From the NCBI GenBank assembly GCA_016219175.1, contig JACRCD010000069.1:1-46307 (forward strand): a stretch of 46,307 bases of DNA, in the 5' to 3' direction. Source of the DNA: Deltaproteobacteria bacterium. GTDB lineage: Bacteria; Desulfobacterota; Desulfobulbia; Desulfobulbales; SURF-16. Shown here in pieces: positions 23,001 through 43,735 of this stretch. Each line of letters starts with the position of its first letter. Position 1 is the stretch's first letter. The notes below the pieces were generated by a model. That model worked only from the letters and a program-made list of their open reading frames with translations, ran no database searches and was not told where the DNA came from. A program made the translations under genes and the position numbers.

Positions 23001-23030
23001 GCGGTGCTTGATTTTGAGGTGCAGCTGTAA
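20007..23030 (+). CDS. Three-module exported protein: M1-like metallopeptidase, ChaN-like domain, PDZ domain
   Basis: A 1007-residue protein with an N-terminal signal peptide (hydrophobic 10-22, cleavage near VSAG). Residues about 30-500 resemble M1 aminopeptidases: the zinc motif HEVLH (275-279) is followed by Glu297, 17 residues on, in NWCEGLTTYLAD; the canonical spacing is 18. The usual GxMEN exopeptidase motif is replaced by a GFAMPTFTLLG stretch. Residues about 665-885 are a ChaN/DUF399-type domain (VVYVGETHVSQADHLLQY; IGMEMF; GSGHVVKENAIP), a fold linked to heme binding in ChaN. Residues about 925-990 are a PDZ domain (LGVMLVDKGEGPVIGGFAEQ; DVILAIDGEEV). The protein probably acts in the periplasm on peptides or proteins. 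A good ribosome-binding site (AAGG) precedes it. The stop is immediately followed by the octamer repeats at 23031. Confidence 0.85.
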   Translation: MKSDCHYAGFLLPLLLLLALLTDRPVSAGEFPRVDLSVSFDLAGHALTGVTRFTLAPGEETSLRTGGLEIREVLVDGRPRQLPIGEEGLLTFAAAGAEQSVNIAFAGEIAAEAASSSMVDRQGIVLLDRWYPQPVKPALISLTAEIPPDFYAVSEADDIIYQQGENSKKVSFSFSQPLMFRHFIAGPYQVQEEKLESGVILTTYFFPEDQEFARMYGEKTKAYLTRYEKLIGPYPYKRYSVVENRLPTGFAMPTFTLLGQSVVRLPFITETSLGHEVLHSWFGNGVGVDYDLGNWCEGLTTYLADQAYAADKNEDTDFRKGQLVKYQSHVAADNTMKVADFKDAGDHGIASQATRAVGYNKVSMIFHMLRKKIGDESFYAGLRNFYEQKKFQTASWADLQQSFGAAAGVDLAEFFDQWLLRPDVPVLTVEKLKLVIKEGSPQLTFDLVQRNNPPYPLTVSVQVQSGKEKVEQQFEAAGNSTPVSFTLADMPETMEIDPHYDLMRKLVADEVPPVWSRFQGGAEKLAVLAAGGEDIYAPFTPLLEEMGCRIVSEEELDEHDLGVKNLLFLGLDSKAAKGLFARPPFPATGFTLEARENPLAPGLVAVLVQGAAKEQVEAVVHKLGHYGKYGYLHFEDGRNAEKKIPDSDYGIGYLLDQPPRGAAVQKSLEFAAIMDSIAESRVVYVGETHVSQADHLLQYRVLRALHQRYPEVAIGMEMFNLGSQAALDAYVKGDIDERQLLKEAEYFKNWGYDYRFYRDILQYARQNKLPVVALNLDKDIVSDTFKEGGIAGLSPEIKATLPEERDLSMPGYRQRLVQVFQSHSGPHFNANDKKISSFVQSQVLWDETMSQTIADYLESHAATKMIIIAGSGHVVKENAIPPRVARRIPVKQQVVVNVREGDLPPDEADYVFFSDPVNMPPSPLLGVMLVDKGEGPVIGGFAEQSGAKMAKMKEDDVILAIDGEEVRTVDDVKICLLYKEHGQKITIRARRPVILLPDAVLDFEVQL

Positions 23031-23104
23031 CGTTCCAACGATCCAACGTTCAAGCGTTCAAGCGTTCCAGCGTTTAATCGTTGGAACGCTTACCCGCTGG
23101 AACG
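23031..23104. repeat. Inverted cluster of 8-nt word repeats between convergent genes
   Basis: Octamers CGTTCCAA, CGATCCAA, CGTTCAAG (twice), CGTTCCAG and CGTTTAAT are followed by the opposite-strand words CGTTGGAA, CGCTTACC and CGCTGGAA, so the two halves can pair. A TTTTTT run follows, so the structure could end transcription on the plus strand. The stop codon and last codons of hrpB on the minus strand are made from these repeats. Confidence 0.85.
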
Positions 23105-25645
23105 TTTTTTCGTTTTCGCGGTGGGCAGGGCGGTCAGGGGATCGTCCGGCCAGCTGTGTTTGGGGTAGCGTCCCTTGAGTTCCTTTTTCACCTCGGGGTA
23201 GGACCTCTGCCAGAAGCCGGCGAGATCACTCGTCACCTGGATGGGGCGCTGGGCAGGAGAGAGCAGGTGCAGCACTATTTTTACCCTGCCGTGGCAGACA
23301 GTGGGCGTCTGCTCCAGACCGAACATCTCCTGGAGGCGAACGGCCAGCACCGGCGCTTCTCCGGGGTGGTAGTCAATGCGGATGCGGGAGCCGCTGGGAA
23401 CCTGCAGCCGTTCCGGCGCGGCGTGCTCCAGTTCCTGCTGTTTGCGCCAGTCGAGCATATTGCGGAAAATAGCGGCCAGATCAAGCTGCCTGAGCTGTTC
23501 GCGTCTGGTGATGCCGGTGAGATAAGGGGCAAGCCAGTTCAGGTCGGCCAGCAGATGGGCGTCATCGAGCAGCGGCCACTGCTCCTCCGGCTGCCATTCC
23601 CGCAAACAGCGGAGGCGCGCCTGGATCTGCCGGGCCTGGCTGCTCCACGGCAGACAGTCAAGCCCCATCTGTTTGATGCCGGTCAGCATCGCCTGGACCA
23701 CCTGCTCCGCATCGGGGCGGGCCAGGGGCTGCTCGCTCACCACCAGTTTTCCCAGATACTGCCTGCGCAGGGCCATGACCCGTTGCTGCCGCGGGTCCCA
23801 GTCAACGTCTTCCCGTAATCGGCACAGGGCGGGTTGGCTTGCCCGCAGTTCAGCCAGATCGACGGCGGCGGCCAGAAAGATGCGCCCCTCCTTCTGCCCG
23901 GCATCAAGCTGGGCCACGGCCAGATACTCAAAAGCCGACAGGGGATCATTCGGCGGGAGATAACCGCCCCGGCCCCCGGCCAGCTGGTAGCGTTCCCGCT
24001 GGCCGGGGCGGCGCACGGCGATGCGGTCCGGATAGGCAAAGGCCAGGATGAGGCCGGTCTTGTCGTCATCATAGCCGCTTTGGCTGTTGTTGGTGAGCAT
24101 CCTCCGCCACTGTCCAGACAGAGTGTCCACCAGACGGCATCCCCCCGCGTCACCTCCTTCCCTCTGCAGCGCCGCTGCGCCCGCCCTGCGGTACAGGGCG
24201 AGCAGCCGCAGCCTTTCCTGCAGATCGGCCGTGCTTTCCCCCCCGCCCCGGCTGCGGATATCACGTTCGCTCACCAGAGCCGCCACGTCGCAGGCCAGGG
24301 CGAGTTGCCCCATCTCCGCCGCCTTGATCAGCATATGGGCCAGACGCGGATGCAGGGGCAGGGCGGCCAGCTGTCTGCCGGTTGGTGTGATACGCCCGGC
24401 GGCGTCGACGGCGCCAAGGGAGATGAGCAGCTGGCGGGCCGTTTCATACGAGGCTTCGGGCGGCGGATCAAGCCAGCGCAGCTGGTGCGCGTCATGCGCC
24501 CCCCAGAGGGCCAGCTCCAGGGCCAGGGGCGCCAGATCAGCCGCGCATATTTCCGGGGGATGAAAGGGGGCAAGCCCATGATGGAGATGTCTGGTCCACA
24601 GCCGCAGGCAATAGCCGGGGCCGAGCCTGCCCGCCCTGCCCGTGCGCTGCCGGGCCGCGGCCCTGGAGACCCGCACCGTTTCCAGCCTGCTCAGGCCGCT
24701 GGCCGGTTGAAAGCGGGGCAGCCTGGACCAGCCGCTGTCCACGACATTTTCAATTCCTTCAATAGTGAGGCTTGTTTCGGCAATGGAGGTGGCCAGCACC
24801 ACCCGCCGTCTGCCCCCCGGGTCGGGCAGAATGGCCCTGTCCTGGTCCTGCTGGCTGAGGTTGCCGAAGAGCGGCAGGATAACCGTGCCGGCATCTTTTC
24901 CCTGCTCAAGCTGCTCCCGGACCTCTCTGATTTCCCCGCTGCCGGGCAGGAAGGCCAGGATATCTCCCTTTTTTTCCGCCAGCACCCGCCTGATGCCCTG
25001 TCCCGTGACCGCGGCAACCCTGCCTGGTGGTTCCCGGTCAAGATAGTCGATCTCCACCGGAAAACTCCGGCCGTGACCGGTGATCACCGGGACATTACCC
25101 AGCAGTGCCGCGACGGGACCGGTATCCAGGGTGGCCGACATGACCAGCAGCCGCAGGTCCTCCCGCAGCTCTCTGAGATCAAGGCAGAGGGCCAGGCCGA
25201 GATCGGCATGGATGGAGCGTTCATGGAATTCGTCAAAGATGACCAGCCCCACCTCGGCAAGTTCCTGATCGCTTTGCAGGCGGCGGGTCAGGATACCTTC
25301 GGTGAGCACCTCGATGCGGGTGGCGCGGTCAATGCGCCGTTCAAAACGGATCTGAAAACCCACGGTTTCCCCCACCTGTTCGCCAAGCAGACTTGCCATG
25401 CGGGCCGCGGCACCTCGGGCGGCCAGACGGCGGGGCTGCAGCATGAGGATTTTTCTGCCGGCCAGCCAGGGCTCGTCAAGCAGGGCCAGGGGCGCGCCGG
25501 TGGTTTTGCCGGAGCCGGGCGGGGCGGCAAGCACCGCGCAACCCGCGCCCAGGGCCTGACGCAATTCAGGCAGGGCAGGGGCAATGGCCAGGGCGGACAA
25601 GGCCTGGGTAATGGCCTGTTTTTGTCTTTCATTGGTAGCGGGCAT
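23090..25645 (-). CDS. hrpB: ATP-dependent helicase HrpB
   Basis: An 851-residue DEAH/RHA helicase of the HrpB family. Motif I is APPGSGKTTG (about 41-50), Ia MLQPRRLAARG, II FDEFHERS (138-143), III SATLDTG, V VVLATSIAETSLTIEG, VI RQRTGRAGRLGPG; the helicase-associated and HrpB C-terminal domains follow, ending with the typical RYPKHSWPDDPLTA motif. The cellular role of HrpB is poorly known; RNA remodelling is assumed. The start lies 8 bp after the stop of the XPB-like helicase gene, so the two form an operon. The very last codons (RSSG, stop) lie in the octamer repeat cluster. Confidence 0.94.
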   Translation of the reverse strand: MPATNERQKQAITQALSALAIAPALPELRQALGAGCAVLAAPPGSGKTTGAPLALLDEPWLAGRKILMLQPRRLAARGAAARMASLLGEQVGETVGFQIRFERRIDRATRIEVLTEGILTRRLQSDQELAEVGLVIFDEFHERSIHADLGLALCLDLRELREDLRLLVMSATLDTGPVAALLGNVPVITGHGRSFPVEIDYLDREPPGRVAAVTGQGIRRVLAEKKGDILAFLPGSGEIREVREQLEQGKDAGTVILPLFGNLSQQDQDRAILPDPGGRRRVVLATSIAETSLTIEGIENVVDSGWSRLPRFQPASGLSRLETVRVSRAAARQRTGRAGRLGPGYCLRLWTRHLHHGLAPFHPPEICAADLAPLALELALWGAHDAHQLRWLDPPPEASYETARQLLISLGAVDAAGRITPTGRQLAALPLHPRLAHMLIKAAEMGQLALACDVAALVSERDIRSRGGGESTADLQERLRLLALYRRAGAAALQREGGDAGGCRLVDTLSGQWRRMLTNNSQSGYDDDKTGLILAFAYPDRIAVRRPGQRERYQLAGGRGGYLPPNDPLSAFEYLAVAQLDAGQKEGRIFLAAAVDLAELRASQPALCRLREDVDWDPRQQRVMALRRQYLGKLVVSEQPLARPDAEQVVQAMLTGIKQMGLDCLPWSSQARQIQARLRCLREWQPEEQWPLLDDAHLLADLNWLAPYLTGITRREQLRQLDLAAIFRNMLDWRKQQELEHAAPERLQVPSGSRIRIDYHPGEAPVLAVRLQEMFGLEQTPTVCHGRVKIVLHLLSPAQRPIQVTSDLAGFWQRSYPEVKKELKGRYPKHSWPDDPLTALPTAKTKKRSSG

Positions 25646-27185: not shown

Positions 27186-27268
27186 ATCTATCCGCGGCAG
27201 TTGCCCAAGTCAAGCACGAGTGGTTTGGAACTTCCAAAAGAAGGCTGCCAGGGATTTGTTAAAAATAA

Positions 27269-27403
27269 TGAGGCTCTTGCGAAATATGCAAAAGAGTGCC
27301 TCCTGTCATTTCGACTGAAGGGAGAAATCTAATAAAATCAAGGCAATTAAAGATTCCTCACTGCGTTCGGAATGACACACAAGTTTATTTTGCAAGAGGC
27401 TCA
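27269..27403. mobile_element. 135-bp MITE-like element, copy 1
   Basis: The ends are TGAGGCTCTTGCGAAAT and ATTTTGCAAGAGGCTCA, near-perfect inverted repeats. The inside is non-coding and contains TCATTTCGAC and GGAATGACA as subterminal complementary segments. Copies of identical length are at 29536-29670 and (inverted) 30958-31092. Confidence 0.88.
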
Positions 27404-27534
27404 ATAAACAATGCAAATAATTTTCAGGAAAAGCTGTAAAAATCCCGGATGATTAGTATATTATATTAAATAAAGTGGTTTTCGGTTTGGAGGCAGAGGG
27501 GAGTTTCCAAGGTGTCTGCATAAAGGAGGCGTGC

Positions 27535-29535: not shown

Positions 29536-29670
29536 GGAAGCTCCTGCAAAATAAGCAAAAGAGGGCCTCCTGTCATTTCGACCGAAGAAAGAAATCTAAT
29601 AAAATCAAGGCAATTAAAGATTCCTCACTGCGTTCGGAATGACACACAAGTTCATTTTGCAAGAGCCTTA
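29536..29670. mobile_element. 135-bp MITE-like element, copy 2
   Basis: Same orientation and length as 27269-27403; the left end is more diverged (GGAAGCTCCTGCAAAATA), the right end is ATTTTGCAAGAGCCTTA. Its right end abuts the ribosome-binding site of the CBS-domain gene, so it may carry or have displaced that gene's promoter. The 180 bp before it hold no gene I can support. Confidence 0.85.
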
Positions 29671-30957: not shown

Positions 30958-31092
30958 TGAGGCTCATGCCAGATGAACTTGTGTGTCATTCCAAACCCAG
31001 TGAGGAATCTTTGATTGCCTTGATTTTATTATATTTTTCCATTCGGTCGAAATGCCAGGAGGCACTTTTTCGCTTATTTTGCAAGAGCCTCA
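30958..31092. mobile_element. 135-bp MITE-like element, copy 3 (inverted)
   Basis: The reverse complement of the element at 27269-27403 with the same length; it starts TGAGGCTCATGCC and ends ATTTTGCAAGAGCCTCA. It lies in the 428-bp gap between the HPP gene and a coiled-coil gene remnant. The flanks 30838-30957 and 31093-31265 show nothing else I can name. Confidence 0.87.
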
Positions 31093-31265
31093 TTTCAGAA
31101 TCATTCCATTCCGGTAATTTTCGCTGGCCTGCAACTAAAATGAGAAGTAGTGTTTTTTTGTGTTTGAGTAAATTTTTTGATCCGGTAGGACACTATCTGT
31201 CCGGGGTCTCGGGATATGCTGGAGAGTGTCACGCCGGGATGGATTCATGCTATTTCCCCAGGGAA

Positions 31266-31564
31266 ATGGAGGAGGGCATTAAGAGAGCGGTCAAGGAAAC
31301 GACGGAGAGACTGACCGCCGAGGCCGCTAAAAACGAGGAACGGCCGCGCAAAACCTTTGAGGGCGAAAAAAATGTGCTCGCCACCAGGATTTCCGCCCTG
31401 GAGCAGGTTGCCGCCGACCAGAAAAAACAGCTCGATCTGCTGGCCTCCCAGCTTGACAAGGCCTACGGCAAGGTGCAGGACATTGCGTCAAGGCGGTTTC
31501 CAGCCCCAGGGAGCGCTATTATGGGGAACCCGCGAAAGGTTCCGGCCAGAATGAGGGAAAGTAA
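31266..31564 (+). pseudogene. Frameshifted coiled-coil gene remnant
   Basis: From ATG 31266 the frame encodes a charged coiled coil (MEEGIKRAVKETTERLTAEA ... QLDLLASQLDKAYGKVQDIA). Near 31489 the reading changes: in the original frame it drifts into basic nonsense, while a one-base shift restores KAVSSPRERYYGEPAKGSGQ followed by a stop at 31562-31564. The expected junction is GCG-GTC-AAG-GCG, of which one G is missing. It is probably the 3' end of a longer coiled-coil gene. The stop lies 6 bp before the octamer cluster. Confidence 0.65.
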
Positions 31565-31570
31565 AAAAAA

Positions 31571-31691
31571 GTTCAAACGTTCCAGCGTTCAAACGTTCCA
31601 ACGTGAAAACATTCGAACGCCGAATCGCTGCAACGTTTGAACGCTGGAACCTTGAAACGCTGAAACGCTGGAACGTTGGAACGTTGGAACG
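31571..31691. repeat. Inverted octamer-repeat cluster upstream of the four-helix-bundle gene
   Basis: The left half has CGTTCAAA, CGTTCCAG, CGTTCAAA, CGTTCCAA in tandem; the right half has TTTGAACG, CTGGAACC, TTGAAACG, CTGAAACG, CTGGAACG, TTGGAACG (twice), which are opposite-strand versions. The whole can fold into a long hairpin. Its end abuts the GGAGGAGG ribosome-binding site of the next gene. Confidence 0.9.
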
Positions 31692-31704
31692 GAGGAGGTT
31701 CGCC

Positions 31705-32154
31705 ATGACCGCGAAAAACTTTGAAGACCTGGAAATCTGGCAACTGGCCCGGTCATTGACCGGCAGGATATATAAACTTACCAGAGAGGGTGGATTCGCC
31801 AGGGATTTCGGTTTGGGTAACCAGATCCAGCGGGCCTCGGTGTCAGTGATGTCGAATATCGCCGAGGGATATGAAAGAGGCGGCAACCAGGAGTTCATTC
31901 AGTTTCTTGCCATTGCCAAAGGCAGCTGCGGCGAGGTGCGCTGCCAGCTTTATGTGGCCATGGATCAGGGGTATATCGGCCGTGAAGAGGCTGAGCCCCT
32001 GATTGATCAGCACAAAAAATTGTCCATCATGATTCATAAGTTTATGGAGCATCTGAAAGGCAGCAGCTTTAAGGGGCAGAAATACAAACCCCCAAAGCCA
32101 GATGCCAAAATGGCGGAATTCGACGCCCTGTTGCAGAGCTATCTGAAAAAATAA
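31705..32154 (+). CDS. Four-helix-bundle protein (23S rRNA intervening-sequence/Avd-like family)
   Basis: A 149-residue helical protein with the family hallmarks: FEDLEIWQLARSLTGRIYKL at the N-terminus, GLGNQIQRASVSVMSNIAEGYERG in helix 2, and the FLAIAKGSCGEVRCQLYVA helix. Relatives are encoded in intervening sequences of 23S rRNA genes, and a relative (Avd) is the accessory protein of diversity-generating retroelements. Here there is no rRNA gene or reverse transcriptase nearby. ATG 31705 has a perfect site (GGAGGAGG); the longer frame from 31603 passes through the repeats. It is flanked by related inverted octamer clusters at 31571-31691 and 32161-32250, so gene and repeats may move or be copied together (inference). 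Confidence 0.9.
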   Translation: MTAKNFEDLEIWQLARSLTGRIYKLTREGGFARDFGLGNQIQRASVSVMSNIAEGYERGGNQEFIQFLAIAKGSCGEVRCQLYVAMDQGYIGREEAEPLIDQHKKLSIMIHKFMEHLKGSSFKGQKYKPPKPDAKMAEFDALLQSYLKK

Positions 32155-32160
32155 CGGGTC

Positions 32161-32250
32161 CAGCGTGGAAAACGTTCCAACGCGTGAACGCTCAAACGTT
32201 TGAACGCTGGAACATTGAAACGCTTGAACGCTATAACGCTGAAACGTTTC
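32161..32250. repeat. Inverted octamer-repeat cluster downstream of the four-helix-bundle gene
   Basis: Words ACGTTCCA, ACGCTCAA and ACG on the left pair with TTTGAACG, CTGGAACA, TTGAAACG, CTTGAACG, CTATAACG, CTGAAACG on the right around the palindrome CAAACGTTTG (near 32193-32202). It is the same word family as 31571-31691 and lies directly before the ribosome-binding site of the HIRAN gene. Confidence 0.88.
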
Positions 32251-32268
32251 ACCACAGGAGGAAACCGG

Positions 32269-32661
32269 ATGAACCGTCGCAATTTTATCAAAACAACCCT
32301 TGCCGCCCTTGCCTGGCTCGCCTTTCCCCGGCCGGGAAAGTCAGCCGCCCAGGAGATCATCCCCCTGTTTTCCTGCCATGCCGCTGGATTTCAATACTAC
32401 GAGGGACCCGAAATCATCAGCACCCTGCGCCACGGAGAGCAGCTTACTCTGCTCCGCGAACCGGCCAACCCCCATGACGGCAAGGCCATTGCCGTTTATA
32501 GCGCTGCCGGGCAAAAACTCGGCTACCTTCCTGCCTACATCAACGAAACCCCGGCCCTGCAGATGGACGCGGGCCGAAAATTCACCGCCCTGGTGAAGAA
32601 AATTGATCCCACCGCCCAGCCCTGGGAGATGCTGGAGATGACCATTGTTGGGCCGGGTTGA
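32269..32661 (+). CDS. Exported HIRAN-domain protein with Tat-like signal
   Basis: A 130-residue protein. The N-terminus MNRRNFIKTTLAALAWLAF is a twin-arginine signal (RRNFIK), followed by an about 95-residue HIRAN domain (HAAGFQYYEGPEIISTLRHG; LLREPANPHDGKAIAVYSA; KLGYLPAYINE). HIRAN domains are best known in DNA-damage helicases where they bind DNA ends, so an exported stand-alone copy is unexpected. ATG 32269 has AGGAGG at good spacing; the longer frame from 32200 runs through repeats. Confidence 0.82.
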   Translation: MNRRNFIKTTLAALAWLAFPRPGKSAAQEIIPLFSCHAAGFQYYEGPEIISTLRHGEQLTLLREPANPHDGKAIAVYSAAGQKLGYLPAYINETPALQMDAGRKFTALVKKIDPTAQPWEMLEMTIVGPG

Positions 32662-32801: not shown

Positions 32802-33776
32802 ATGTCAGACCAGCTGGCCTATGAACGATTCTACTGGTTCAATGACGAGATCAAGTCCGGCCGCTATCCCAATACCACCGGCCTGGTTGAGGAATTCGGC
32901 ATTTCCCGGCGCACCGCTCACCGGGACATCGACTTCATGCGCGTCCGCCTCAATGCCCCGCTGGAGTTTGTCCGGTTCCGCAATGGCTACCAATACACCA
33001 ACGACGCCTATGAATTGCCGGGCCGCTGGATCAGCGAGGCCAATGTCTTCTCCCTGGCCCTGGCGGTCCGCCTCGCCTCCACCATCCCCGATCCGGCCAT
33101 CAAAAACGATCTGTGCGCCATCATCAACAAGGCCCTCGGACGCTCAGGCAAGAGGGGAAATAATTGCCTGGAGACCTTTCACGACAAGATCTCGGTCAAG
33201 AATATCGAATATTCCAGGGTGAATACGTGGTGCTTCCGGGAAACGGTGCAGGCCCTGTTTGCCGATTCCCCGCTGCGCATCACCTACCATTCGCCCCACA
33301 TCGGCCGAAATTCGACCCGCACGGTGCAGCCCCTGCATCTCATGCACTACATGGGCAACTGGCACCTGATCGCCTGGTGTACCGCCAGCCGGGCGCTCCG
33401 GGACTTTGCCCTGGCCCGCATCAAAAATGTTACCCCCTCGGACGACAGCCTGAAGCTGCCGGACAACCTGCCTCCCATGAAGGAATATACCCGCAAATAC
33501 TTCGGCATCATGCAGGGTGACGCCGGTTGCGAAGTCGTGCTCTGCTTTTCGCCGCAATCCGCGCCGTGGGTGGTCGAGCAGGTCTGGCATCCGGAGCAGC
33601 AAACCAGCCCGGAACCGGACGGGGGCTTGCTGCTTTACTTTCCGGCCGCTGATTTCCGTGAACTGGTCAAACGCATCCTGAGCCACGGCGCCGGGGTGAA
33701 AATCATCTCCCCGCCGGAACTGCGGGATTTGGCGCGCCGGGAGATCAGAAAAATGGCGGAGATGTATGAGAAGTAA
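32802..33776 (+). CDS. WYL-domain transcriptional regulator
   Basis: A 324-residue regulator. Residues about 8-65 are a winged helix-turn-helix (TTGLVEEFGISRRTAHRDID...). The WYL domain lies at about 148-235 (LRITYHSPHIGRN; VQPLHLMHYMGNWHLIAWC), followed by the WCX C-terminal part (GLLLYFPAADFRELVKRILS). WYL proteins sense ligands, probably nucleic-acid fragments, and often control CRISPR and other defence genes. Its position 430 bp before cas3 on the same strand, with only a repeat cluster and a cas3 relic between, makes it a likely regulator of the cas operon (inference). The start has GGGG upstream. Confidence 0.9.
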   Translation: MSDQLAYERFYWFNDEIKSGRYPNTTGLVEEFGISRRTAHRDIDFMRVRLNAPLEFVRFRNGYQYTNDAYELPGRWISEANVFSLALAVRLASTIPDPAIKNDLCAIINKALGRSGKRGNNCLETFHDKISVKNIEYSRVNTWCFRETVQALFADSPLRITYHSPHIGRNSTRTVQPLHLMHYMGNWHLIAWCTASRALRDFALARIKNVTPSDDSLKLPDNLPPMKEYTRKYFGIMQGDAGCEVVLCFSPQSAPWVVEQVWHPEQQTSPEPDGGLLLYFPAADFRELVKRILSHGAGVKIISPPELRDLARREIRKMAEMYEK

Positions 33777-33900: not shown

Positions 33901-34010
33901 GAACAATGAAACAGCTTGAACGTTGAAACGCTGAAGCGGCTTGAACACTGCAACTCTGGAATGCTTGAACTGTTTGAGCTCTCCAAACGCTTACACATTG
34001 AAACGCTGGG
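33901..34010. repeat. Degenerate word-repeat cluster upstream of the cas3 relic
   Basis: Variants of TTGAACGTT, TTGAAACGCTG, GCTTGAACA and CTCCAAACG follow each other in mostly one orientation. They are the same word family as the 31.6 and 32.2 kb clusters but more diverged. The cluster ends just before the ribosome-binding site of the broken cas3 start at 34020. Confidence 0.75.
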
Positions 34011-34208: not shown

Positions 34209-36629
34209 ATGAAGAAAATTAAATTCATCGCCCATCACAGACAATCTAACGGGGAAGAGCAAGCTGTTTGTGACCATTTATTGGAAGCATCAATAATAAG
34301 TCGTTGCTTTGCTGAAAAGATTGGTTGCCCTGACATTGGGGAACTACTTGGCCTACTTCATGATTTAGGTAAATATAGTAAGCAATTTCAGTCATATATC
34401 AAGTCAGCAATAGGCATGCTTAATCCTGATATAGATGATGAGTTTGTGGACGTTCAGTCTTTGAAGGGAAGGATTGACCATTCCAGCGCGGGGGCACAGT
34501 GGATATGGGGGAAATTCCGTCGATATGGGCCACAAGGGGAGCTGGTTGGGCAGATACTCGCATTGTGTCTTGCTTCTCATCATGGCGGCTTGCTCGACTG
34601 TCTGAAACCGGGAGGGGAAAATAGTTTCATTGCCAGAATGAAGAAGGATGTGAAAAAGACTCATCTGAAAGAATGTGAGGATAATATGGATTTCGAGGTA
34701 TTGGGGCATCTGGACGCTCTCACCTCCCCAAGGCTCATTCAAGAATGTTCACATCGTATCCTGAACTTGGTTGATCCTAAAAGAAACCAAATCGTAACCA
34801 GTTTTAATATTGGTTTTTTTGCCCGCTTTTTGTTTAGTTGCCTGATTGACGCAGACAGGATGAACAGCGCGGACTTTGAAAATCCAGATAAAGAAAAATT
34901 TCGGCAACAGAAGGCAGTTGATTGGCAATCAGCAATAATACGTTTTGAAAACTACCTTGCAAACCTGCCTGTAAAAAGCGAAAAAATTGACCCAATACGA
35001 AGATCGATCTCAGCGAAGTGCAAGGAGAGAGCTGCTGGCGCGCAAGGGATTTACACCTTCACCGTGCCGACAGGCGGAGGCAAAACTTTTGCCAGTATGC
35101 GGTACGCCTTGCATCATGCCCATCAGCATCAACTTGACCGTATCATCTATATCATTCCTTACACGTCGATTATCGAGCAGAACGCCCAAGCCATCCGGGA
35201 GGCAATCGAAGTTGAAGGTGATGAATTCCCCTGGATATTGGAGCACCACTCCAACCTTGAACCGGAACGGCAAACTTGGCGTGATAAGCTCATTGCCGAA
35301 AACTGGGATGCACCTGTGGTCTTCACCACCATGGTTCAATTCCTTGATGTCCTGTTTAGCGGCGGTACGCGTGGGGTCAGGCGGATGCACCAATTGGCAA
35401 GATCGGTTCTGATATTTGACGAGATCCAGACCCTGCCGATTAACTGTGTTCATCTCTTCTGTAACGCCGTTAATTTTCTTGTCTCTCAAGCCAGAACCAC
35501 TGTTGTCCTTTGTACCGCGACGCAGCCATTGCTGGACAAGTTGAAAGCTCCTGACAAGGGTCAGTTGAATATCCCGAAAGAGAATGAACTTGTCTGTAAC
35601 GTGGCCGAAGTGTTTGATCAGCTTAGAAGGGTGCGCATTGACACCAAAGGGATTCGTCCGCAAGGATGGACAGAGTCAGAGCTGGTTGATCTGGCAGTTG
35701 GCGAATTCAACGAAAAAGGAAATTGTCTGGTGGTGGTCAACACAAAGGGCTGGGCGCAGCGGTTGTATGAATCATGCAGAAGTAGAATTGAGACGGGAAG
35801 CCTATTTCATCTCAGCACGAGTCTCTGCCCCGCGCATAGAAAGAAGATCCTGGATCAAGTCCGCCAACGCTTAGACAACGAACTGCCGGTCCTTTGCATA
35901 AGTACGCAGTTGATTGAGGCGGGTGTTGATGTGGATTTTGCGTCGGTGATCCGTTTCCTTGCCGGTTTGGATTCCATAGCCCAGGCCGCCGGACGGTGCA
36001 ACAGAAACGGACGGCTGCCCCAGGCAACGGTACATGTTGTCAATCCACAACTGGAACAGATTGATATGCTGCATGACATCAAGGAAGGCCGGGATAAAGC
36101 CCTGCGGGTCTTTTCAGAAAAGGGTGACGCGGACCTGTTGGATCCTGATGTGATGAGTCTGTATTTTTCCTATTATTTTTACAGCCGGGCAGGCGAGATG
36201 GTTTATCCGGTCTCGGCGAATCAAGCCGGACGACAAGACAGTTTGCTCAGTTTGCTGAGCAATAATCACCTGAATATTGCCAGGACAAAACCCTTGCAGC
36301 TCAGGCAATCATTCAGTACGGCCGGGAAAATTTTCAAAGCGATTGATGCGCCCACCGAGGCTGTGATAGTCCCCTATGGAGAAGGGAGGGAAATCATTGC
36401 CTGGCTTTGTGCTGCCCCGGAACCTGCTAAGGCGTATCAATTGCTCAAGCGCGCCCAGAAGTTCAGTGTCAATGTGTTCCCCAATATCATGCGGAAGCTT
36501 AAGGAAGCGGGAGCTATAAGGCCGGTACAGCAAGGCGAGGAAATTTATTATCTCGACGAACGCCACTATAGTCAGGAATTTGGGTTATCCACAACAGAAG
36601 TCAGTACCATGCAATTCCAGAATGCTTAG
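34209..36629 (+). CDS. cas3: Cas3 nuclease-helicase (type I-C)
   Basis: An 806-residue single-chain Cas3. The HD nuclease domain (about 1-260) has His-Asp 51-52 in GLLHDLGKYSKQF, a His in DHSSAGAQ, HHGG (123-126) and Asp213/215. The SF2 helicase has motif I VPTGGGKTF (285-293), motif II IFDEIQTLP (401-409), TATQP (435-439), LIEAGVDVDF and the motif VI QAAGRCNRNG. It degrades target DNA opened by the Cascade complex. The start has AAGGG upstream. It heads the I-C cas operon; cas5c begins 14 bp after its stop. By eye the HD part is richer in A+T than the helicase part, which may reflect mosaic origin. Confidence 0.95.
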   Translation: MKKIKFIAHHRQSNGEEQAVCDHLLEASIISRCFAEKIGCPDIGELLGLLHDLGKYSKQFQSYIKSAIGMLNPDIDDEFVDVQSLKGRIDHSSAGAQWIWGKFRRYGPQGELVGQILALCLASHHGGLLDCLKPGGENSFIARMKKDVKKTHLKECEDNMDFEVLGHLDALTSPRLIQECSHRILNLVDPKRNQIVTSFNIGFFARFLFSCLIDADRMNSADFENPDKEKFRQQKAVDWQSAIIRFENYLANLPVKSEKIDPIRRSISAKCKERAAGAQGIYTFTVPTGGGKTFASMRYALHHAHQHQLDRIIYIIPYTSIIEQNAQAIREAIEVEGDEFPWILEHHSNLEPERQTWRDKLIAENWDAPVVFTTMVQFLDVLFSGGTRGVRRMHQLARSVLIFDEIQTLPINCVHLFCNAVNFLVSQARTTVVLCTATQPLLDKLKAPDKGQLNIPKENELVCNVAEVFDQLRRVRIDTKGIRPQGWTESELVDLAVGEFNEKGNCLVVVNTKGWAQRLYESCRSRIETGSLFHLSTSLCPAHRKKILDQVRQRLDNELPVLCISTQLIEAGVDVDFASVIRFLAGLDSIAQAAGRCNRNGRLPQATVHVVNPQLEQIDMLHDIKEGRDKALRVFSEKGDADLLDPDVMSLYFSYYFYSRAGEMVYPVSANQAGRQDSLLSLLSNNHLNIARTKPLQLRQSFSTAGKIFKAIDAPTEAVIVPYGEGREIIAWLCAAPEPAKAYQLLKRAQKFSVNVFPNIMRKLKEAGAIRPVQQGEEIYYLDERHYSQEFGLSTTEVSTMQFQNA

Positions 36630-36642
36630 GGAGGAAAATTGG

Positions 36643-37347
36643 ATGAAAAACGATATCAGTTTCCGGTTATGGGGGCGGTACGCACTTTTTACCGACCCGG
36701 TAACCAAAACCGGTGGGGAGAAATGCTCCTATCATGTCCCGACCTATGAAGCCATCAAAGGGGTATTGAAGTCGATTTACTGGAAACCCACTATCATCTG
36801 GCATGTGGATAAGGTGCGGGTCATGAAACCTTTGCGCACCCAGACCAAGGGGACAAAACCTTTGGTCTGGGGTGGCGGCAACAGCCTGGCGATTTACACT
36901 TTTCTGCATGATGTGGAATACCAGGTTAAGGCGCATTTTGAATGGAATGAACACCGCCCGGAACTGACCAAGGACCGGATCGACGGAAAACATTTCAGTA
37001 TTGTAAAGCGAATGCTGGAAAAGGGAGGTCGGCAGGACATCTTCCTCGGTACCCGAGATTGTCAAGGCTATGTGGAACCCTGCGAGTTCGGCGAGGGAAA
37101 AGGCCCCTATGATGAAATCGACGAACTCAGCTTTGGCCTGATGTTTCACGGTTTTGATTATCCGGATGAAACAGGAACGAATGAATTTCATAGCCGCTTC
37201 TGGCATGCCGTCATGCGGAGAGGAATTCTGGAGTTCCCCAGACCGGAAACATGTGAAAGTCGCCGCTTCATCCGCAAGATGTTCCCCAAGGAATTCGGGC
37301 TAGGTGAGAATGTCCTGTCTGTTGAACATGAAGAGGCACTGCTATGA
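36643..37347 (+). CDS. cas5c: Cas5c crRNA-processing endoribonuclease
   Basis: A 234-residue Cas5 of the I-C (Cas5d/Dvulg) type. It starts SFRLWGRYALFTDPVTKTGG and has VPTYEAIKGVLKSIYWKP, both diagnostic. In type I-C there is no Cas6: Cas5c cuts the pre-crRNA and stays at the 5' handle. ATG 36643 with GGGAGGA is chosen; the longer frame from 36580 overlaps cas3. Its stop overlaps the cas8c start by 4 bp. Confidence 0.94.
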   Translation: MKNDISFRLWGRYALFTDPVTKTGGEKCSYHVPTYEAIKGVLKSIYWKPTIIWHVDKVRVMKPLRTQTKGTKPLVWGGGNSLAIYTFLHDVEYQVKAHFEWNEHRPELTKDRIDGKHFSIVKRMLEKGGRQDIFLGTRDCQGYVEPCEFGEGKGPYDEIDELSFGLMFHGFDYPDETGTNEFHSRFWHAVMRRGILEFPRPETCESRRFIRKMFPKEFGLGENVLSVEHEEALL

Positions 37348-39371
37348 GCTGGCTTGCGAGGCTATATGAGACTTATGAGGCTGTTTCCCAAAACCATCAA
37401 TTGAATGAGTCGTTAGAGCCTTACTATCACAAGAAGGAACAATGTCACATTGAAATCATTATTGATGGCGATGGGGATTTTATTCGTGCTGAGCCGCTTC
37501 TGCAGGAGGTGACTTATGGCAAAGAGACTTATTGGAAAGGAGAAGAAACCGTTATTCCAATAACTCCTAAAAGTTTGACCGGCCGTACAAGTGGGCCAGC
37601 CCCATATCCATTGGTAGAGCAAATTCAATATGTGGCAAAAGACTACCCTTATTATGGGGGTGCCAAGGAGTCATACTTTGAAGACTTTTGTGAGCTTATT
37701 ACTTGTTGGGCAATTTCTGAATACACCCATCCTAAGATTGAGGCCGTAAAAAAATATGTGGGGAAAGGGTTCGTGGTTCGTGATTTGCTTAAAGCCAAGA
37801 TCCTTTATTCTTATCTGAATGACGGTCGCGAGATATTGATAACCAATTGGGCAAAGCAGGGTCCGTGCGAGGAGGGATCGAAAAAGAGATTACCTAAACC
37901 AGCCCTGCTTAATGCAGTGAACAACAACGAACAAGGAAATGCTAAAATTCGATGGCGGGTCCAACGCCTTGGTGACCCGGATGATCTGACTTGGTCAGAT
38001 CCAATTTTGATAAAGAGATGGCAAAAATTTCAGGAAGATACAAATCAAAAAAACGGTTTTTGCCAAATATCCGGGAAAGAAAGTTTTATAGCCAAGAATC
38101 ATCCTAAAGGGATCATTGCCAAGGTCAATGATGCCAAGTTGATATCTGTACCTACCGATCCAAGTTATTTGACCTATCAGGGCAGATTCACTAACGAAAA
38201 CCAGCCTTATGCCATAAGTTTTGAAGTAAGCCAGAAAGCACATAATGCATTGCGTTGGTTAATTTCCAGGCAAGGACCAGGAAGTCAAACCAATGAGCAA
38301 GTGTTCGTGACTTGGGCGATTTCTGGCAGGCCTATACCAGACCCCTTTGACGATATATGGGCTGTACTTGGAGATGAGATAAAATTTTCTCCTGAATCTG
38401 AGGAAAAGAAAGGGCTTGAAATAGACCATTCCATTGATGCCGGGCAGTCTTTTGCCATAAAATTCAACAACTATATGAAAGGTTATAAGGAAAACATCCA
38501 GCCTACTGAATCAATAGTCGTGCTTGGTTTGGATGCAGCTACAAAAGGAAGGCTTGGAGTCATGTACTACCTGAAACTTCAGGGGAGTGAATACCTCGAG
38601 CGTATTGAAAGTTGGCACACGCAGTTTGCCTGGCCACAGCGGCATACAATCGAAATACCAAGCGGAAAAGAGGGTAAGAAGCCGGGCAGTAAAGTGATTT
38701 GGCCGGTGAGTTCACCTGTCCCAAGAAGTATCGCCGAGGCGGCTTATGGCAATATCCTGAAAAGCAACGACACCCTTAAAAAAAGCCTGATTGAGCGGAT
38801 ATTGCCCTGCATTGTTGATGCCCGACCCTTGCCGGAAGATATTTTGAATTCCGCTGTCCGGCGGGCCAGCAACCGGCATAACTGTGAACAATGGGAGTGG
38901 GAACGGAATCTAGGTTTCGCTTGTGCACTATACAGAGGTTTCTATAAACGGCACCCAGACCAAAAACAAAGGAGAGAATATGATATGATACTGGAAGAAA
39001 ATAACACTTCAAGGGATTATTTATATGGCCGACTACTGGCGATAGCCGAGCGGATAGAAGAAATTGCGTTATCGGTTGGTGGAGAAAATCGTTCCACCAC
39101 AGCCGCCAGGATGATGCAGCGTTTTGCGGATCGACCGTTTTCCACCTGGCGGAGTATTGAGTTGGCGCTTCAACCCTATATGCAGCGACTGCAAAGTTCC
39201 CGGCCAGGATTTCTGACGAACAGAAAAAAAGAGCTTGATTCGGTTTTATGTTCCTTCAAGCCTGGTGATTTTACCAGCGATAAACCTATGTCAGGTGAAT
39301 TTTTGCTGGGCTATCATTGCCAGAGGATGTTTTTTCGTAATACGCAAACAGATTCCACCCATGAAGTCTGA
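37344..39371 (+). CDS. cas8c: Cas8c large subunit (Csd1 family)
   Basis: A 675-residue Csd1-family protein and the large subunit of I-C Cascade, which recognises the PAM. It starts MSWLARLYETYEAV and includes PYPLVEQIQYVAKDYPYYGG and ALRWLISRQG. The C-terminal about 128 residues are also made separately as Cas11c from an internal start at 38985. The 4-bp overlap with cas5c suggests coupled translation. The 5' two thirds is A+T-richer by eye than the genes around it. Confidence 0.94.
   Translation: MSWLARLYETYEAVSQNHQLNESLEPYYHKKEQCHIEIIIDGDGDFIRAEPLLQEVTYGKETYWKGEETVIPITPKSLTGRTSGPAPYPLVEQIQYVAKDYPYYGGAKESYFEDFCELITCWAISEYTHPKIEAVKKYVGKGFVVRDLLKAKILYSYLNDGREILITNWAKQGPCEEGSKKRLPKPALLNAVNNNEQGNAKIRWRVQRLGDPDDLTWSDPILIKRWQKFQEDTNQKNGFCQISGKESFIAKNHPKGIIAKVNDAKLISVPTDPSYLTYQGRFTNENQPYAISFEVSQKAHNALRWLISRQGPGSQTNEQVFVTWAISGRPIPDPFDDIWAVLGDEIKFSPESEEKKGLEIDHSIDAGQSFAIKFNNYMKGYKENIQPTESIVVLGLDAATKGRLGVMYYLKLQGSEYLERIESWHTQFAWPQRHTIEIPSGKEGKKPGSKVIWPVSSPVPRSIAEAAYGNILKSNDTLKKSLIERILPCIVDARPLPEDILNSAVRRASNRHNCEQWEWERNLGFACALYRGFYKRHPDQKQRREYDMILEENNTSRDYLYGRLLAIAERIEEIALSVGGENRSTTAARMMQRFADRPFSTWRSIELALQPYMQRLQSSRPGFLTNRKKELDSVLCSFKPGDFTSDKPMSGEFLLGYHCQRMFFRNTQTDSTHEV
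38985..39371 (+). CDS. cas11c: Cas11c small subunit, internal translation within cas8c
   Basis: In-frame ATG 38985 in cas8c has a strong Shine-Dalgarno AAAGGAG at 38968-38974, 10 nt upstream. The product is 128 residues (MILEENNTSRDYLYGRLLAI...), all-helical, matching the size of known I-C Cas11c. It is established for type I-C that the small subunit is translated from inside cas8c and forms the Cascade belly. The sequence evidence is the site plus the length; the function comes from the family. Confidence 0.82.
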   Translation: MILEENNTSRDYLYGRLLAIAERIEEIALSVGGENRSTTAARMMQRFADRPFSTWRSIELALQPYMQRLQSSRPGFLTNRKKELDSVLCSFKPGDFTSDKPMSGEFLLGYHCQRMFFRNTQTDSTHEV

Positions 39372-39389
39372 TTAAAGAGGAGACAGAAT

Positions 39390-40250
39390 ATGAGCAGTCT
39401 GAATAACAAAATTGATTTCGCGGTCATCTTCAGTGTCAAAAAAGCCAATCCCAACGGCGACCCCTTGAATGGCAACCGCCCTCGCATAGACTATGACGGC
39501 TATGGCGAGGTTTCCGATGTTTGTCTCAAACGAAAAATCCGGGATCGTTTGCAGGATGCCGGCCACACTGTTTTTGTTCAATCGGATGAGAAAAAAATTG
39601 ATGGCATGCCAAATCTTAGGGCACGGGCTGAATCTTCTCAGTTCGGGTTGGGCAAGGATGCTTTCAAGATTGACAAAAGTATGCCGGAAAAGAAGGATGA
39701 GACGGCTAAACTTGCCTGCGAAAAATGGCTTGATGTGCGTGCATTTGGGCAGCTTTTTGCCTTTGGTAAAGGAGATGATGCTTCTGGTGTGTCAATACCT
39801 ATTCGTGGTCCGGTCACTATTCAATCTGCCTTTAGTGTTGAACCTGTCAGTATAACCAGTACTCAGATTGTTAAGAGTGTCAATGCAGAGGAAGCAAAGG
39901 GGAAAAGCGATATCAGCGCTGATCGTATGGGGATGAAACATCGGGTTGACCAAGCTGTTTATGTCACCTTCGGCAGCATGAGCCCTCAGTTGTCCGGAAA
40001 GACCGAGTTCAGTGATTCGGATGCCGAAGTTATCAAATCCGTTCTCCCAAAACTTTTTGAAGGGGACGCATCGTCGGCAAGACCGGACGGCACGATGGCG
40101 GTCGAGAAAGTCATCTGGTGGAAGCACAACAGTAAAGCTGGCCAATATTCTTCGGCAAAAGTGCACAGGACGTTGTCAGTAAATCCGGATGGCAGCTATC
40201 AGTTAAACAACCTTGATGGGTTGATTCCTGAAGAAATCAATGGGTTTTGA
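39390..40250 (+). CDS. cas7c: Cas7c backbone subunit (Csd2 family)
   Basis: A 286-residue Cas7/Csd2 protein with the signature AVIFSVKKANPNGDPLNGNRP and DYDGYGEVSDVCLKRKIRDRL near the start. Several copies coat the crRNA in Cascade. It begins 19 bp after cas8c with an AAAGAGGAG site. Normally cas4 follows; here a 3.4-kb accessory island intervenes. Confidence 0.95.
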   Translation: MSSLNNKIDFAVIFSVKKANPNGDPLNGNRPRIDYDGYGEVSDVCLKRKIRDRLQDAGHTVFVQSDEKKIDGMPNLRARAESSQFGLGKDAFKIDKSMPEKKDETAKLACEKWLDVRAFGQLFAFGKGDDASGVSIPIRGPVTIQSAFSVEPVSITSTQIVKSVNAEEAKGKSDISADRMGMKHRVDQAVYVTFGSMSPQLSGKTEFSDSDAEVIKSVLPKLFEGDASSARPDGTMAVEKVIWWKHNSKAGQYSSAKVHRTLSVNPDGSYQLNNLDGLIPEEINGF

Positions 40251-40288
40251 GCCAAGCGCTGTGATTGGTTTAAAAACTGGATGGTGAT

Positions 40289-40975
40289 ATGGTGGAAACC
40301 AAACTGGGTGTCTTCAAAAACAAGGAAATCAGGCGAACCCTGCATAACAACGACTGGTGGTTCGTGGTCGAGGACGTCGTTCACTCCATGATCGACTCAA
40401 AAGATCCGAAGCAGTATATCCGGCGCATGAAACAGCGCGACCCGGAACTTGGTAAAGGGTGGGTACAGATTGTACATACCCTTCCCATCGAGACGGAAGG
40501 TGGCGCGCAGCGTATGTTGTGCGCCAACACCGAAGGCCTCTTCCGCATCATCCAGTCCATCCCCTCGCCCAAGGCCGAGCCGTTCAAACTCTGGCTGGCC
40601 AAGGTTGGCTATGAACGGGTACAGGAGATCGAAGACCCGGAACTGGCAACAAAGAGAACCAAGGCCCTTTACCGGGCCAAGGGCTATTCGGAAGCTTGGG
40701 TTGAAAAGCGGATGCGCGGCATTGCCGTCCGGGCCGAACTGACCGACGAGTGGCAGAATCGGGCCGTCAATGGCGAACCGGAATACGCCATCCTGGCTGC
40801 GGAAATTTCCAAGGCCGCCTTCGGCCTCACCCCGTCAGAGTGTAAGGAATTGAAAGGGCTGGAGCGGGAAAATTTGCGGGATCACATGACCGATCTGGAA
40901 CTGATCTTTTCCATGCTGGGCGAGGCGGCCACCACCGAGATCGCCCGCCGGCAGGAGCCGATTGAAACACTTTAG
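40289..40975 (+). CDS. BRO-N/antirepressor-like protein 1
   Basis: A 228-residue protein. Residues about 1-110 are a BRO-N domain (IRRTLHNNDWWFVVEDVVHS; CANTEGLFRIIQSIPSPKAE), and the C-terminal half is the helical part common to DinD/antirepressor-like proteins (KRMRGIAVRAELTDEWQNRA; LRDHMTDLELIF). It lacks the basic C-terminal tail seen in its paralog at 40990. BRO-N proteins bind DNA and occur in phages and as DNA-damage-linked genes. Here it lies 38 bp after cas7c on the same strand, so it may be transcribed with the cas genes. The site is weak. Confidence 0.85.
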   Translation: MVETKLGVFKNKEIRRTLHNNDWWFVVEDVVHSMIDSKDPKQYIRRMKQRDPELGKGWVQIVHTLPIETEGGAQRMLCANTEGLFRIIQSIPSPKAEPFKLWLAKVGYERVQEIEDPELATKRTKALYRAKGYSEAWVEKRMRGIAVRAELTDEWQNRAVNGEPEYAILAAEISKAAFGLTPSECKELKGLERENLRDHMTDLELIFSMLGEAATTEIARRQEPIETL

Positions 40976-40989
40976 GAGGAGAGTGCTTG

Positions 40990-41832
40990 ATGGTATCAAC
41001 GGAACTGATTCGGGTTGCGGTTTTTGAAGGTGAAAAGATTCGAAAAATCTTCCATGAGGGGGAATGGTGGTTTTCGATCATTGATATCGTGCGTGTGTTG
41101 ACCGGCAGTAGCGTCCCAAAGCGCTATTGGAGTGATCTTAAGCGCAAACTCACAAAAGAGGGTTATGTCGAGTTGTACGAAAAAATCGTACAACTGAAAT
41201 TTATCGCAACCGACGGGAAGTATTACGCTACCGACTGTGCGGACACGGAAACTATGTTTCGGATCATTCAATCCATTCCTTCACCCAAGGTGGAACCGCT
41301 AAAGCGTTGGCTGGCAAGGGTCGGCAAGGAACGAATTGAGGAAATCGAGAATCCGGAACTCTCCATGGACCGGATGAAGTCGATTTATGAGAAAAAAGGG
41401 TACACAAAGGAGTGGATCGATAAACGGATGCGCGGCATTGCCGTGCGCCAGGATCTGACTGACGAGTGGCAGAACCGTGGGGCGAAGACAAGCCTGGAAT
41501 TTGCCATCCTGACCAACGAGATCATGCATGGGGCGTTTGATCTGAAAGTGGAGGAATACAAACAGGTGAAGGGGCTGGTAAAAGAAAATCTCCGCGACCA
41601 CATGACCGATATTGAACTGATTCTCACCATGCTGGCCGAGGCTACAACAACCAAGCTACATCGTGACCGGGGTTCCCAGGGTTTTGAACCATTGAAGAAA
41701 GATGCCAAGGATGGCGGGGCCGTGGCTGGAAGGACCCGCAAGGATATTGAAAAGCAGTCCGGCACCCCGGTGGTTTCAAGAGATAATTTCAAGAAGCTGA
41801 CGGGGACAGGGAAGAAGAAACTTACGAGATAG
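40990..41832 (+). CDS. BRO-N/antirepressor-like protein 2
   Basis: A 280-residue paralog of the preceding protein (shared IIQSIPSPK, MRGIAVR, LTDEWQNR, LRDHMTD segments; BRO-N with EGEWWFSIIDIVRVL). It has a C-terminal extension DAKDGGAVAGRTRKDIEKQS then GTPVVSRDNFKKLTG of the DinD-like type. A very good site (AGGAGGAG) precedes ATG 40990, 14 bp after the first paralog. Its TAG is followed in the same frame by a second copy of a similar tail (41836-41970). Confidence 0.85.
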   Translation: MVSTELIRVAVFEGEKIRKIFHEGEWWFSIIDIVRVLTGSSVPKRYWSDLKRKLTKEGYVELYEKIVQLKFIATDGKYYATDCADTETMFRIIQSIPSPKVEPLKRWLARVGKERIEEIENPELSMDRMKSIYEKKGYTKEWIDKRMRGIAVRQDLTDEWQNRGAKTSLEFAILTNEIMHGAFDLKVEEYKQVKGLVKENLRDHMTDIELILTMLAEATTTKLHRDRGSQGFEPLKKDAKDGGAVAGRTRKDIEKQSGTPVVSRDNFKKLTGTGKKKLTR

Positions 41833-41835
41833 CGC

Positions 41836-41970
41836 GATGCTGAGAAAAAAGACTGGAAAGTGGAGGCGCGGGAAAAACTGGAGGTTGAGACGGGCAACAA
41901 GGTGGTCAGTTCTGAAAATTATCTCACGGAGCAGGAGAGCCGGAAGCGGCTAAAAGGCAAAAAGAAGTAG
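41836..41970 (+). pseudogene. Orphan C-terminal tail of a third BRO/DinD-like gene
   Basis: Directly after the stop of BRO 2 plus one codon, and in the same frame, 44 codons read DAEKKDWKVEAREKLEVETG then NKVVSSENYLTEQESRKRLK and a TAG. This matches the tail of BRO 2 (GRTRKDIEKQSGTPVVSRDNF) and has no start of its own. It is a remnant of tandem duplication or recombination among BRO genes. Confidence 0.75.
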
Positions 41971-41985
41971 CATGGGGCAATCGGA

Positions 41986-42987: not shown

Positions 42988-43011
42988 TGGAGATCCGGGC
43001 AAGAGGGTCTT

Positions 43012-43401
43012 TCATGGGTTTTTTACTGCACATTTACTCAACCCTTTGGAGCGGCGGATGAAATCAGAGTCAAAGGTGGCGAAATGGCCGCAATCTTTGC
43101 AGCATGCAAGATGGAGGGCATCGGCAAAATCAAGCCCTTTCCGGGTCCATTCCAAAGCGGAAAATAAGGTGTCAGGATTTTTCGTTTTGACGTTCGTCAG
43201 ACTGAGGAGTTTTATAAATGCGTCACAGATTTCAAGGGTTTTGAAACTGTATGCAAAACGTAAAACCCATTCTGTTTCGAGCATAACGGTGTCGGAAATA
43301 AAAACGGTGTCCTTATTGAAAAGGGCAAAGGCCTTCTTGAATTGGTCTTCATTGTCGCGGGTCAGCAGCCGGACAAGAATATTTGTATCAACCCCGGTCA
43401 T
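43012..43401 (-). CDS. vapC: VapC-type PIN-domain toxin
   Basis: A 129-residue PIN ribonuclease with the acidic residues Asp5 (VDTNILVRLL), Glu42 (LETEW), Asp91/Asp94 (DFADALHL) and Asp111 (FATFDSDF). VapC toxins cut tRNA or rRNA. ATG 43401 has GGAGA upstream; it overlaps vapB by 14 bp. Transcription runs against the cas genes. The gene ends 25 bp from the RhuM-Fic stop (convergent). Confidence 0.9.
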   Translation of the reverse strand: MTGVDTNILVRLLTRDNEDQFKKAFALFNKDTVFISDTVMLETEWVLRFAYSFKTLEICDAFIKLLSLTNVKTKNPDTLFSALEWTRKGLDFADALHLACCKDCGHFATFDSDFIRRSKGLSKCAVKNP

Positions 43402-43651: not shown

Positions 43652-43683
43652 GGGTGACCTCCGGGTAAGAAAGTTGTAAGAAT

Positions 43684-43712
43684 ACTTTAGAGAGCTAAAC
43701 TTGTTTTGTCAA
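43684..43712 (-). promoter_or_regulatory. vapBC promoter with palindromic operator
   Basis: On the minus strand a perfect -35 TTGACA (43712-43707) and a -10 TAAAGT (43689-43684) are 17 bp apart. The inverted repeat TTTAG-AGAG-CTAAA (43686-43699) covers the -10 and is a likely VapB operator. The same short gap must also hold any promoter for cas4-cas1-cas2. Confidence 0.6.
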
Positions 43713-43735
43713 TCAGAGGCTCACGATTAAAGCAA

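Follow-up and report, generated by a model that had tools for sequence, protein, structure and literature searches.

The stretch of DNA analyzed here (the window; 46,307 nt, contig JACRCD010000069.1 of a deltaproteobacterial genome, G000, that is 98.4% complete) carries at 31571–32251 a compact unit in which a gene of the IVP/S23 family (PF05635) is enclosed between two arrays of short words. The gene (31705–32154, plus strand, ATG at 31705, stop at 32154, 149 aa) is preceded by an array at 31571–31691 and followed by another at ~32159–32251, both built of period-8 words of the form GYTNNAAC|G, with the word orientation reversing within each array. A ribosome-binding site recognized from the sequence, GGAGGAGG (31691–31698, plus strand), abuts the upstream array. 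The unit follows the tail of a host gene on the plus strand (31254–31564, stop TAA at 31562–31564), which by eye is coiled-coil-like and is frame-shifted relative to congeners; identity to four congeners over 31254–31562/32232 is 80–86%. On the other side, the ribosome-binding site AGGAGG (32256–32261) of a HIRAN-domain gene (32269–32661, plus strand, Pfam E = 7.2e-17) stands after the downstream array.

A preliminary, sequence-only reading of this DNA had described a four-helix-bundle gene between two hairpin-forming clusters of one word family, with the ribosome-binding site at the cluster edge and neither an rRNA gene nor a reverse transcriptase nor a transposase nearby, and the description is borne out. 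The protein belongs to PF05635 (E = 1.9e-35), both arrays are hairpin-forming (fold z = -3.65 and -2.71), no Rfam family matched in the window, RVT_1 was not matched anywhere in the genome, and a Pfam scan of 26 window ORFs revealed no transposase. Over a 701-nt stretch of the unit, the predicted fold is more stable than that of 20 of 20 shuffled sequences (z = -6.2), with the arrays pairing mostly internally and less across the gene. Each flank in the window is a complete hairpin, unlike the Flavobacterium flanks described below, which, as judged by eye, have one orientation each. The same reading had placed similar clusters, without the gene, elsewhere in the window. One of these, at 23016–23119, is confirmed as an array (hairpin z = -5.4) inside which two convergent ORFs, of the ChaN/M1 and HrpB types, both terminate; the other, at ~33910–34010 after a WYL gene, is present in degenerate form.

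Several other features of the window can be recorded. The WYL regulator gene (32802–33776) lies upstream of a CRISPR-Cas operon (34209–45405; Cas3, Cas5, Csd1, Cas7, later Cas1), presumably of type I-C, in which Bro-N and RhuM/Fic-domain genes (40987–42987) are situated between Cas7 and Cas1. The HIRAN gene is found 3' of an array both in the window, after the IVP gene, and in the congener G005, after the WYL gene (L163 7560–7730 compared with window 32166–32661), as though genes had changed their order at arrays. A dispersed repeat of ~135 bp, unrelated to the octamer, occurs at 30959–31092, 29537–29668, and 27267–27404 (copies 83–90% alike) and in at least 43 other places in the genome.

The AlphaFold2 model of the window protein (pLDDT 91.1) shows a four-helix bundle followed by a predicted fifth, C-terminal helix (residues 134–148). 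When the predicted fold was searched with Foldseek, 2gsc (XCC0516; E = 9.7e-6) and 2rld (BT_0352; E = 1e-4) were retrieved, both of which were recovered by sequence as well. The Avd structure 4dwl is a more remote fold match (E = 0.066, TMt up to 0.88, 8–10% identity). PF05635 is the sole Pfam match of the protein, with no enzymatic domain found by Pfam, and a PHROGs search gave no match. Viral contigs yielded no relative of the window protein alone and 28 loci of the family as a whole; a phage search returned four records, three of them annotated as Avd, and array-like DNA on plasmids was limited to three records, all weak.

The octamer is greatly over-represented in the window and throughout the genome. 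A pattern of two words, 17 nt long, matches the window 66 times (up to two mismatches, both strands), compared with a mean of 2.3 and a maximum of 8 in shuffled sequences, and the octamer pattern has 174 + 191 matches (365) genome-wide, compared with 2 + 4 (6) for a reversed control pattern. In the window and 15 further stretches fetched from the genome, 24 arrays were counted, against one gene of the window's IVP subfamily in the genome. The only other PF05635 match of this genome (L010, on contig C67) has another word at its flanks, the 9-nt AAGTGCCTA, which is present on one side and inverted on the other. Given a second IVP gene with a second word in the same genome, the association was examined across loci in general.

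Loci encoding PF05635 proteins were collected from three sources: 58 relatives of the window's genome, 38 of which encode the family (one locus per genome, with 20 added subsequently); named genomes from many phyla, including Methanophagales archaea (80 of at least 585 confirmed loci kept); and further genomes added to the locus collection. From 198 loci, 159 were used, providing 161 genes that scored at least 40 over at least 70 profile positions and were non-redundant once duplicates had been taken out. Of the other 39 loci, 29 had an IVP match that was duplicate, weaker, or truncated, and 10 had none, namely nine Flavobacterium junctions lacking the IVP gene and L278.

In 66 of 153 IVP genes, the upstream flank has an exact 12-mer in common with the reverse complement of the downstream flank, compared with 12 of 153 in the direct orientation, a mean of 2.3 (maximum 5.1) of 153 for shuffled pairings, 9 of 808 random placements in the same loci, and 6 of 215 control ORFs (240–900 nt) from the same loci; the remaining 87 of the 153 genes share no such 12-mer. 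The fraction was similar for genes with full 250-nt flanks (64/150) and after removal of the Flavobacterium junction loci (56/130). Checked separately, 13 of the 29 loci set aside for their IVP matches, L010 included, also share an inverted 12-mer. In the separate collection of viral contigs, inverted 11-mers were found in 16 of the 21 loci (of 28) that entered the test, several of which are related to one another. A strong period was detected in at least one flank of 110 of the 161 loci, with lengths of 7 nt (81 loci, the period of the published repeats discussed below), 8 nt (22, the period of the window), 9 nt (5), and 10 nt (2). About a third of the loci (51/161) show no strong periodicity, and some flanks consist of two or three words. 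One viral contig (L299, 1–760) carries the array-gene unit in tandem, the copies being joined via an array. By these comparisons, the mirrored-array anatomy of IVP genes is general, extending over bacteria and archaea.

IVP genes typically lie in tight spaces between co-oriented genes. With a crude ORF caller, 81 of 101 were located between two co-directional ORFs, compared with 112 of 218 controls, and the median gaps to the neighbors were 66 and 50 nt. Neighbor pairs identified by eye from translations include carA|carB, groES|groEL, nuoC|nuoD, sdhA|sdhB, and gmk|nadD; on a Nostoc plasmid, an element lies antisense between two ribonucleotide-reductase genes. No functional theme was apparent among the neighbor genes at the sites inspected by eye. 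The seven bases from the upstream stop onward match the array word at six or more positions in 39% of 108 loci, compared with 12% of in-gene controls, and in 79% of 19 Flavobacterium loci (control, 13%), so that arrays often start in register with the upstream stop. TAG is enriched among the upstream stops (46/117 versus 98/404, p = 0.002).

Closely related genomes differ in what is present at such positions. At the window site, the full array-gene-array arrangement occurs in G000, G001, and G003, the gene of G003 being frame-broken; the congener G005 has an array without the gene, G002 has neither, and no match to the site was obtained in G004. Of the 24 arrays counted above, four, all on a single contig of that genome, were compared with the corresponding sites of congeners, where the flanks are 86–96% identical (71–84% for G004). 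G004, which has no octamer arrays in its genome, lacks the array at all four compared sites, and arrays of quite different words occupy the same position at site a1 in G002 and G005 and at site a3 in G002. The finding of different words at one position suggests that where an array sits depends on tolerance or on some feature of the host, and not on the word itself.

The gmk|nadD junction of Flavobacterium provides a broader view. The junction was matched in 149 of 150 genomes searched, and 50 loci, picked non-randomly by score or gap size, were read, with states assigned by eye; all but L235 could be parsed. Among these 49 loci (two of which, L250 and L271, are from the same genome), the IVP gene with arrays is present in 20 and an internally deleted copy in one; a gene-free insert of 40–111 nt, in most cases an array or hairpin belonging to one of several word families, in 20 (19 genomes); only 7–27 nt in four; and another gene in four. 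In the last group (L243, L244, L251, L272), the junction holds a small non-IVP gene with no visible word arrays. The order gmk-four helix bundle-nadD is also listed for F. columnare, in a table in the accessible part of PMC5524665. Of the two features expected of a DNA transposon or MITE, inverted ends are seen in the flanks of IVP genes (the shared 12-mers above), and a target-site duplication could not be resolved by eye at the empty sites; neither a transposition event nor an excised form was seen in the compared genomes. Comparison thus shows arrays gained and lost at fixed junctions, and the protein would be the driver. The suggestion of the sequence-only reading that the unit is mobile or amplifying gains support from the empty, array-only, and full states among congeners and from the co-occurrence of arrays and cognate genes across genomes described below.

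Multi-copy IVP genes in Calothrix PCC 7103, the one such case found, were considered as evidence for an IVP element and rejected. Five identical genes and two that are ~83% alike (L212–L218) ride on a repeated unit of ~2.6 kb with inverted ends of ~94 nt, present in at least five near-identical copies, behind what was judged by eye to be a transposase, and their multiplicity is therefore taken to be IS-driven. Two copies on Calothrix brevissima plasmids are part of a longer block of shared genes and proved uninformative.

The word changes with the protein. Among pairs of loci at different sites, at least three array 9-mers are shared by 2–6% of pairs with less than 55% protein identity, 13.6% at 55–60%, 28.6% at 60–70%, 23 of 28 at 70–80% (the other five share none), and 7 of 7 above 80%, the high-identity pairs being non-independent, with many joining L141 or L143 to Flavobacterium junction loci; at least one shared 9-mer is found in 16–24% of unrelated locus pairs. 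The window's octamer occurs together with its protein at other sites in two further genera of the family (L289, L294). The word differs among protein subfamilies and, judging from these pairs, tends to accompany the protein to other sites.

The same link is seen at the level of genomes. Octamer arrays were detected in all seven genomes with a homologue at least 72% identical to the window protein (pattern matches: G000, 244; G001, 331; G003, 304; G011, 122; G018, 15; G023, 10; G056, 4), compared with 5 of 51 others (G005, 181; G002, 158; G052, 6; G019, 1; G045, 1; Fisher p = 2.6e-6). The congeners G002 and G005, both draft assemblies, contain many arrays with the cognate gene undetected, which may reflect assembly gaps; arrays without a detected gene imply that arrays can persist, and perhaps spread, without it. 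A second word family, the CAGGAG heptamer, weakly replicates the link: at least 10 matches were found in 16 of 38 IVP-positive versus 2 of 20 IVP-negative genomes (p = 0.011), but some genomes also have many matches to the reversed control (225 + 141 in G023, the highest count). Nine solo arrays were set against IVP flanks in search of a cognate word; the match exceeded its null clearly for one (site a3 of G002, with L063 and L066) and modestly for two (L261 with L050, L267 with L128), and did not for the other six. One family of Flavobacterium solo hairpins shows weak covariation, with two-sided change in 3 of 25 pairs. According to the sequence-only reading, the link would be put down to chance if the words were just as frequent away from such genes and strains showed no difference in the unit. 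Within this genome the words are indeed frequent at a distance from the gene (24 arrays, one gene), but the congeners do differ by the unit.

Comparison of genomes shows the anatomy, the linkage of word to protein and to genome, and the presence, absence, and replacement of arrays. From these observations, we consider it probable that the unit at 31571–32251 represents a class of minimal selfish elements that is widespread and IVS-like, with a word-specific protein and, as in the RAYT/REPIN system, dispersed gene-free arrays. A full copy would consist of a word array, a four-helix-bundle IVP gene, and an inverted word array, the arrays being able to pair into long hairpins and each protein subfamily having its own word of 7–10 nt; seated, as it usually is, between two co-directional genes, it would probably be expressed by read-through. 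Gene-free arrays, settling at the ends of genes, would be non-autonomous copies or relics. An oligomer of the IVP would recognize its word in DNA or RNA, and this recognition would drive array copying or insertion in trans, along the lines suggested for RAYT and REPINs. Candidate chemistries include hairpin-DNA transfer, an RNA-level IVS-like step with subsequent copying, and protein-seeded recombination or slippage; the likeness to 23S IVSs suggests an RNA step. Counting against this reading are the negative results for a transposition event, an excised form, a target-site duplication, and an enzymatic domain; the arrays of G002 and G005 with no cognate detected; the loci that show no strong periodicity or no inverted 12-mer; the five pairs at 70–80% identity that have no array 9-mer in common; the IS-borne nature of the Calothrix copies; the weak results for covariation and for the second word; and the difference in flank orientation between the window and Flavobacterium.

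Other readings account for parts of these data. A rather unlikely one is that the IVP is a word-specific RNA- or DNA-binding regulator, with the dispersed arrays as its regulon and those beside its own gene serving autoregulation: arrays are found between the stop codon of one operon gene and the start codon of the next, adjoin ribosome-binding sites, and form RNA hairpins, the word and protein go together, and a role of this kind has been proposed for the TAACTGA arrays (available part of PMC4679880), but the sites inspected by eye share no functional theme, and a given site can hold arrays of unrelated words in different congeners, with junctions empty in others. Alternatively, gene ends could be hot spots for arrays generated by slippage, hairpin-primed synthesis, or an unseen enzyme, with IVP genes merely inserting into the arrays or staying beside them. 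That arrays outnumber genes, that G002 and G005 are array-rich with no cognate detected, and that arrays of different words share sites would all fit, but the word accompanies the protein subfamily at other sites, array presence tracks the cognate gene across 58 genomes, and the flanks are inverted rather than direct repeats, all of which make this account unlikely.

Dependence on a retroelement, a kind of element to which the sequence-only reading had linked the family, is not supported, the window's genome being without an RVT_1 match. The IVP might, like Avd, partner a reverse transcriptase encoded elsewhere that copies array-bounded RNA into DNA, and both the resemblance of the predicted fold to 4dwl and the frequency of RVT_1 in relatives (26/38 IVP-positive versus 8/20 IVP-negative, p = 0.051) are in its favor. 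However, no reverse transcriptase was seen beside the window gene, and RVT_1 is unmatched in the window's genome and 11 other IVP-positive relatives (some incomplete), so that a resident reverse transcriptase seems unnecessary for keeping the system, and we regard this partnership as quite improbable. Chance juxtaposition of low-complexity words and a small gene could draw on the degeneracy of the words and the single 9-mers common to many unrelated pairs, but is already contradicted by the shuffled pairings (~2 versus 66 of 153) and by the reversed pattern (6 versus 365 genome matches), and is extremely improbable.

The selfish-element reading can be extended, tentatively and with somewhat less than even confidence, to IVP genes at large. 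These would form an undescribed class of minimal selfish elements of bacteria and archaea in which a non-enzymatic four-helix-bundle oligomer reads the 7–10-nt word of its subfamily and propagates inverted arrays into gene ends, with gene-free arrays, perhaps including the published heptamers, as non-autonomous copies and the 23S IVSs as a special case. Since word and protein change together, each element would, on this bolder reading, carry its own address code. From the findings as a whole, the IVP/S23 family gains a consistent genomic context, short tandem intergenic repeats so far described separately gain one possible source, and core operons are seen to tolerate insertions repeatedly and exactly at gene ends. 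The long-open IVP question becomes testable through own-word binding and gene-dependent array turnover.

Searches of the open PMC literature turned up nothing that connects IVP genes with arrays of tandem words. The IVSs of Coxiella 23S rRNA encode S23p/IVP and are excised by RNase III; in the available part of PMC4990558, IVS function and origin are called unclear, mobile-element hypotheses are cited, and IVP/S23 proteins have no known function. Like the window unit, these IVSs encode the same protein family, have ends that pair into a stem, and reside within a host transcription unit (PMC4990558, same part). The window unit, in contrast, lies between protein genes, ends in short-word arrays, and has dispersed gene-free arrays; with no Rfam match in the window, it is by this feature not a 23S rRNA IVS. 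With Avd of diversity-generating retroelements (DGRs), the protein shares the predicted four-helix-bundle fold, but sequence identity to 4dwl is low and word arrays flank the gene; with no RVT_1 match in the genome, the unit is by this feature not a DGR.

Cyanobacterial STRRs are among the short tandem intergenic repeats to which the arrays can be compared. The TAACTGA heptamers of Beggiatoaceae are tandem, intergenic, and strain-specific, and MacGregor considered a repeat-binding protein as a mobile element behind them (PMC4679880); intergenic heptamers of the GGGAATC type occur in Xanthomonas and Nostoc (PMC4692102). The terms S23, intervening, and four-helix are absent from the accessible portions of both sources, and TCAGTTA/TCAGTTG, the reverse complement of the TAACTGA type, flanks one IVP gene (L087). 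As far as those portions describe the heptamers, the window arrays resemble them in being tandem words in intergenic positions that differ among strains, but have a word of 8 rather than 7 nt that is tied to an IVP gene. By its Pfam matches the unit is not a RAYT, only PF05635 having been matched and no Y1 (HuH) tyrosine transposase, and its ends are tandem 7–10-nt words rather than single palindromes. RAYT/REPIN systems, as described in the part of PMC3116915 available, share with it a single-copy gene that has its own repeats at either side, hairpins dispersed without the gene, and linkage between repeat and protein.
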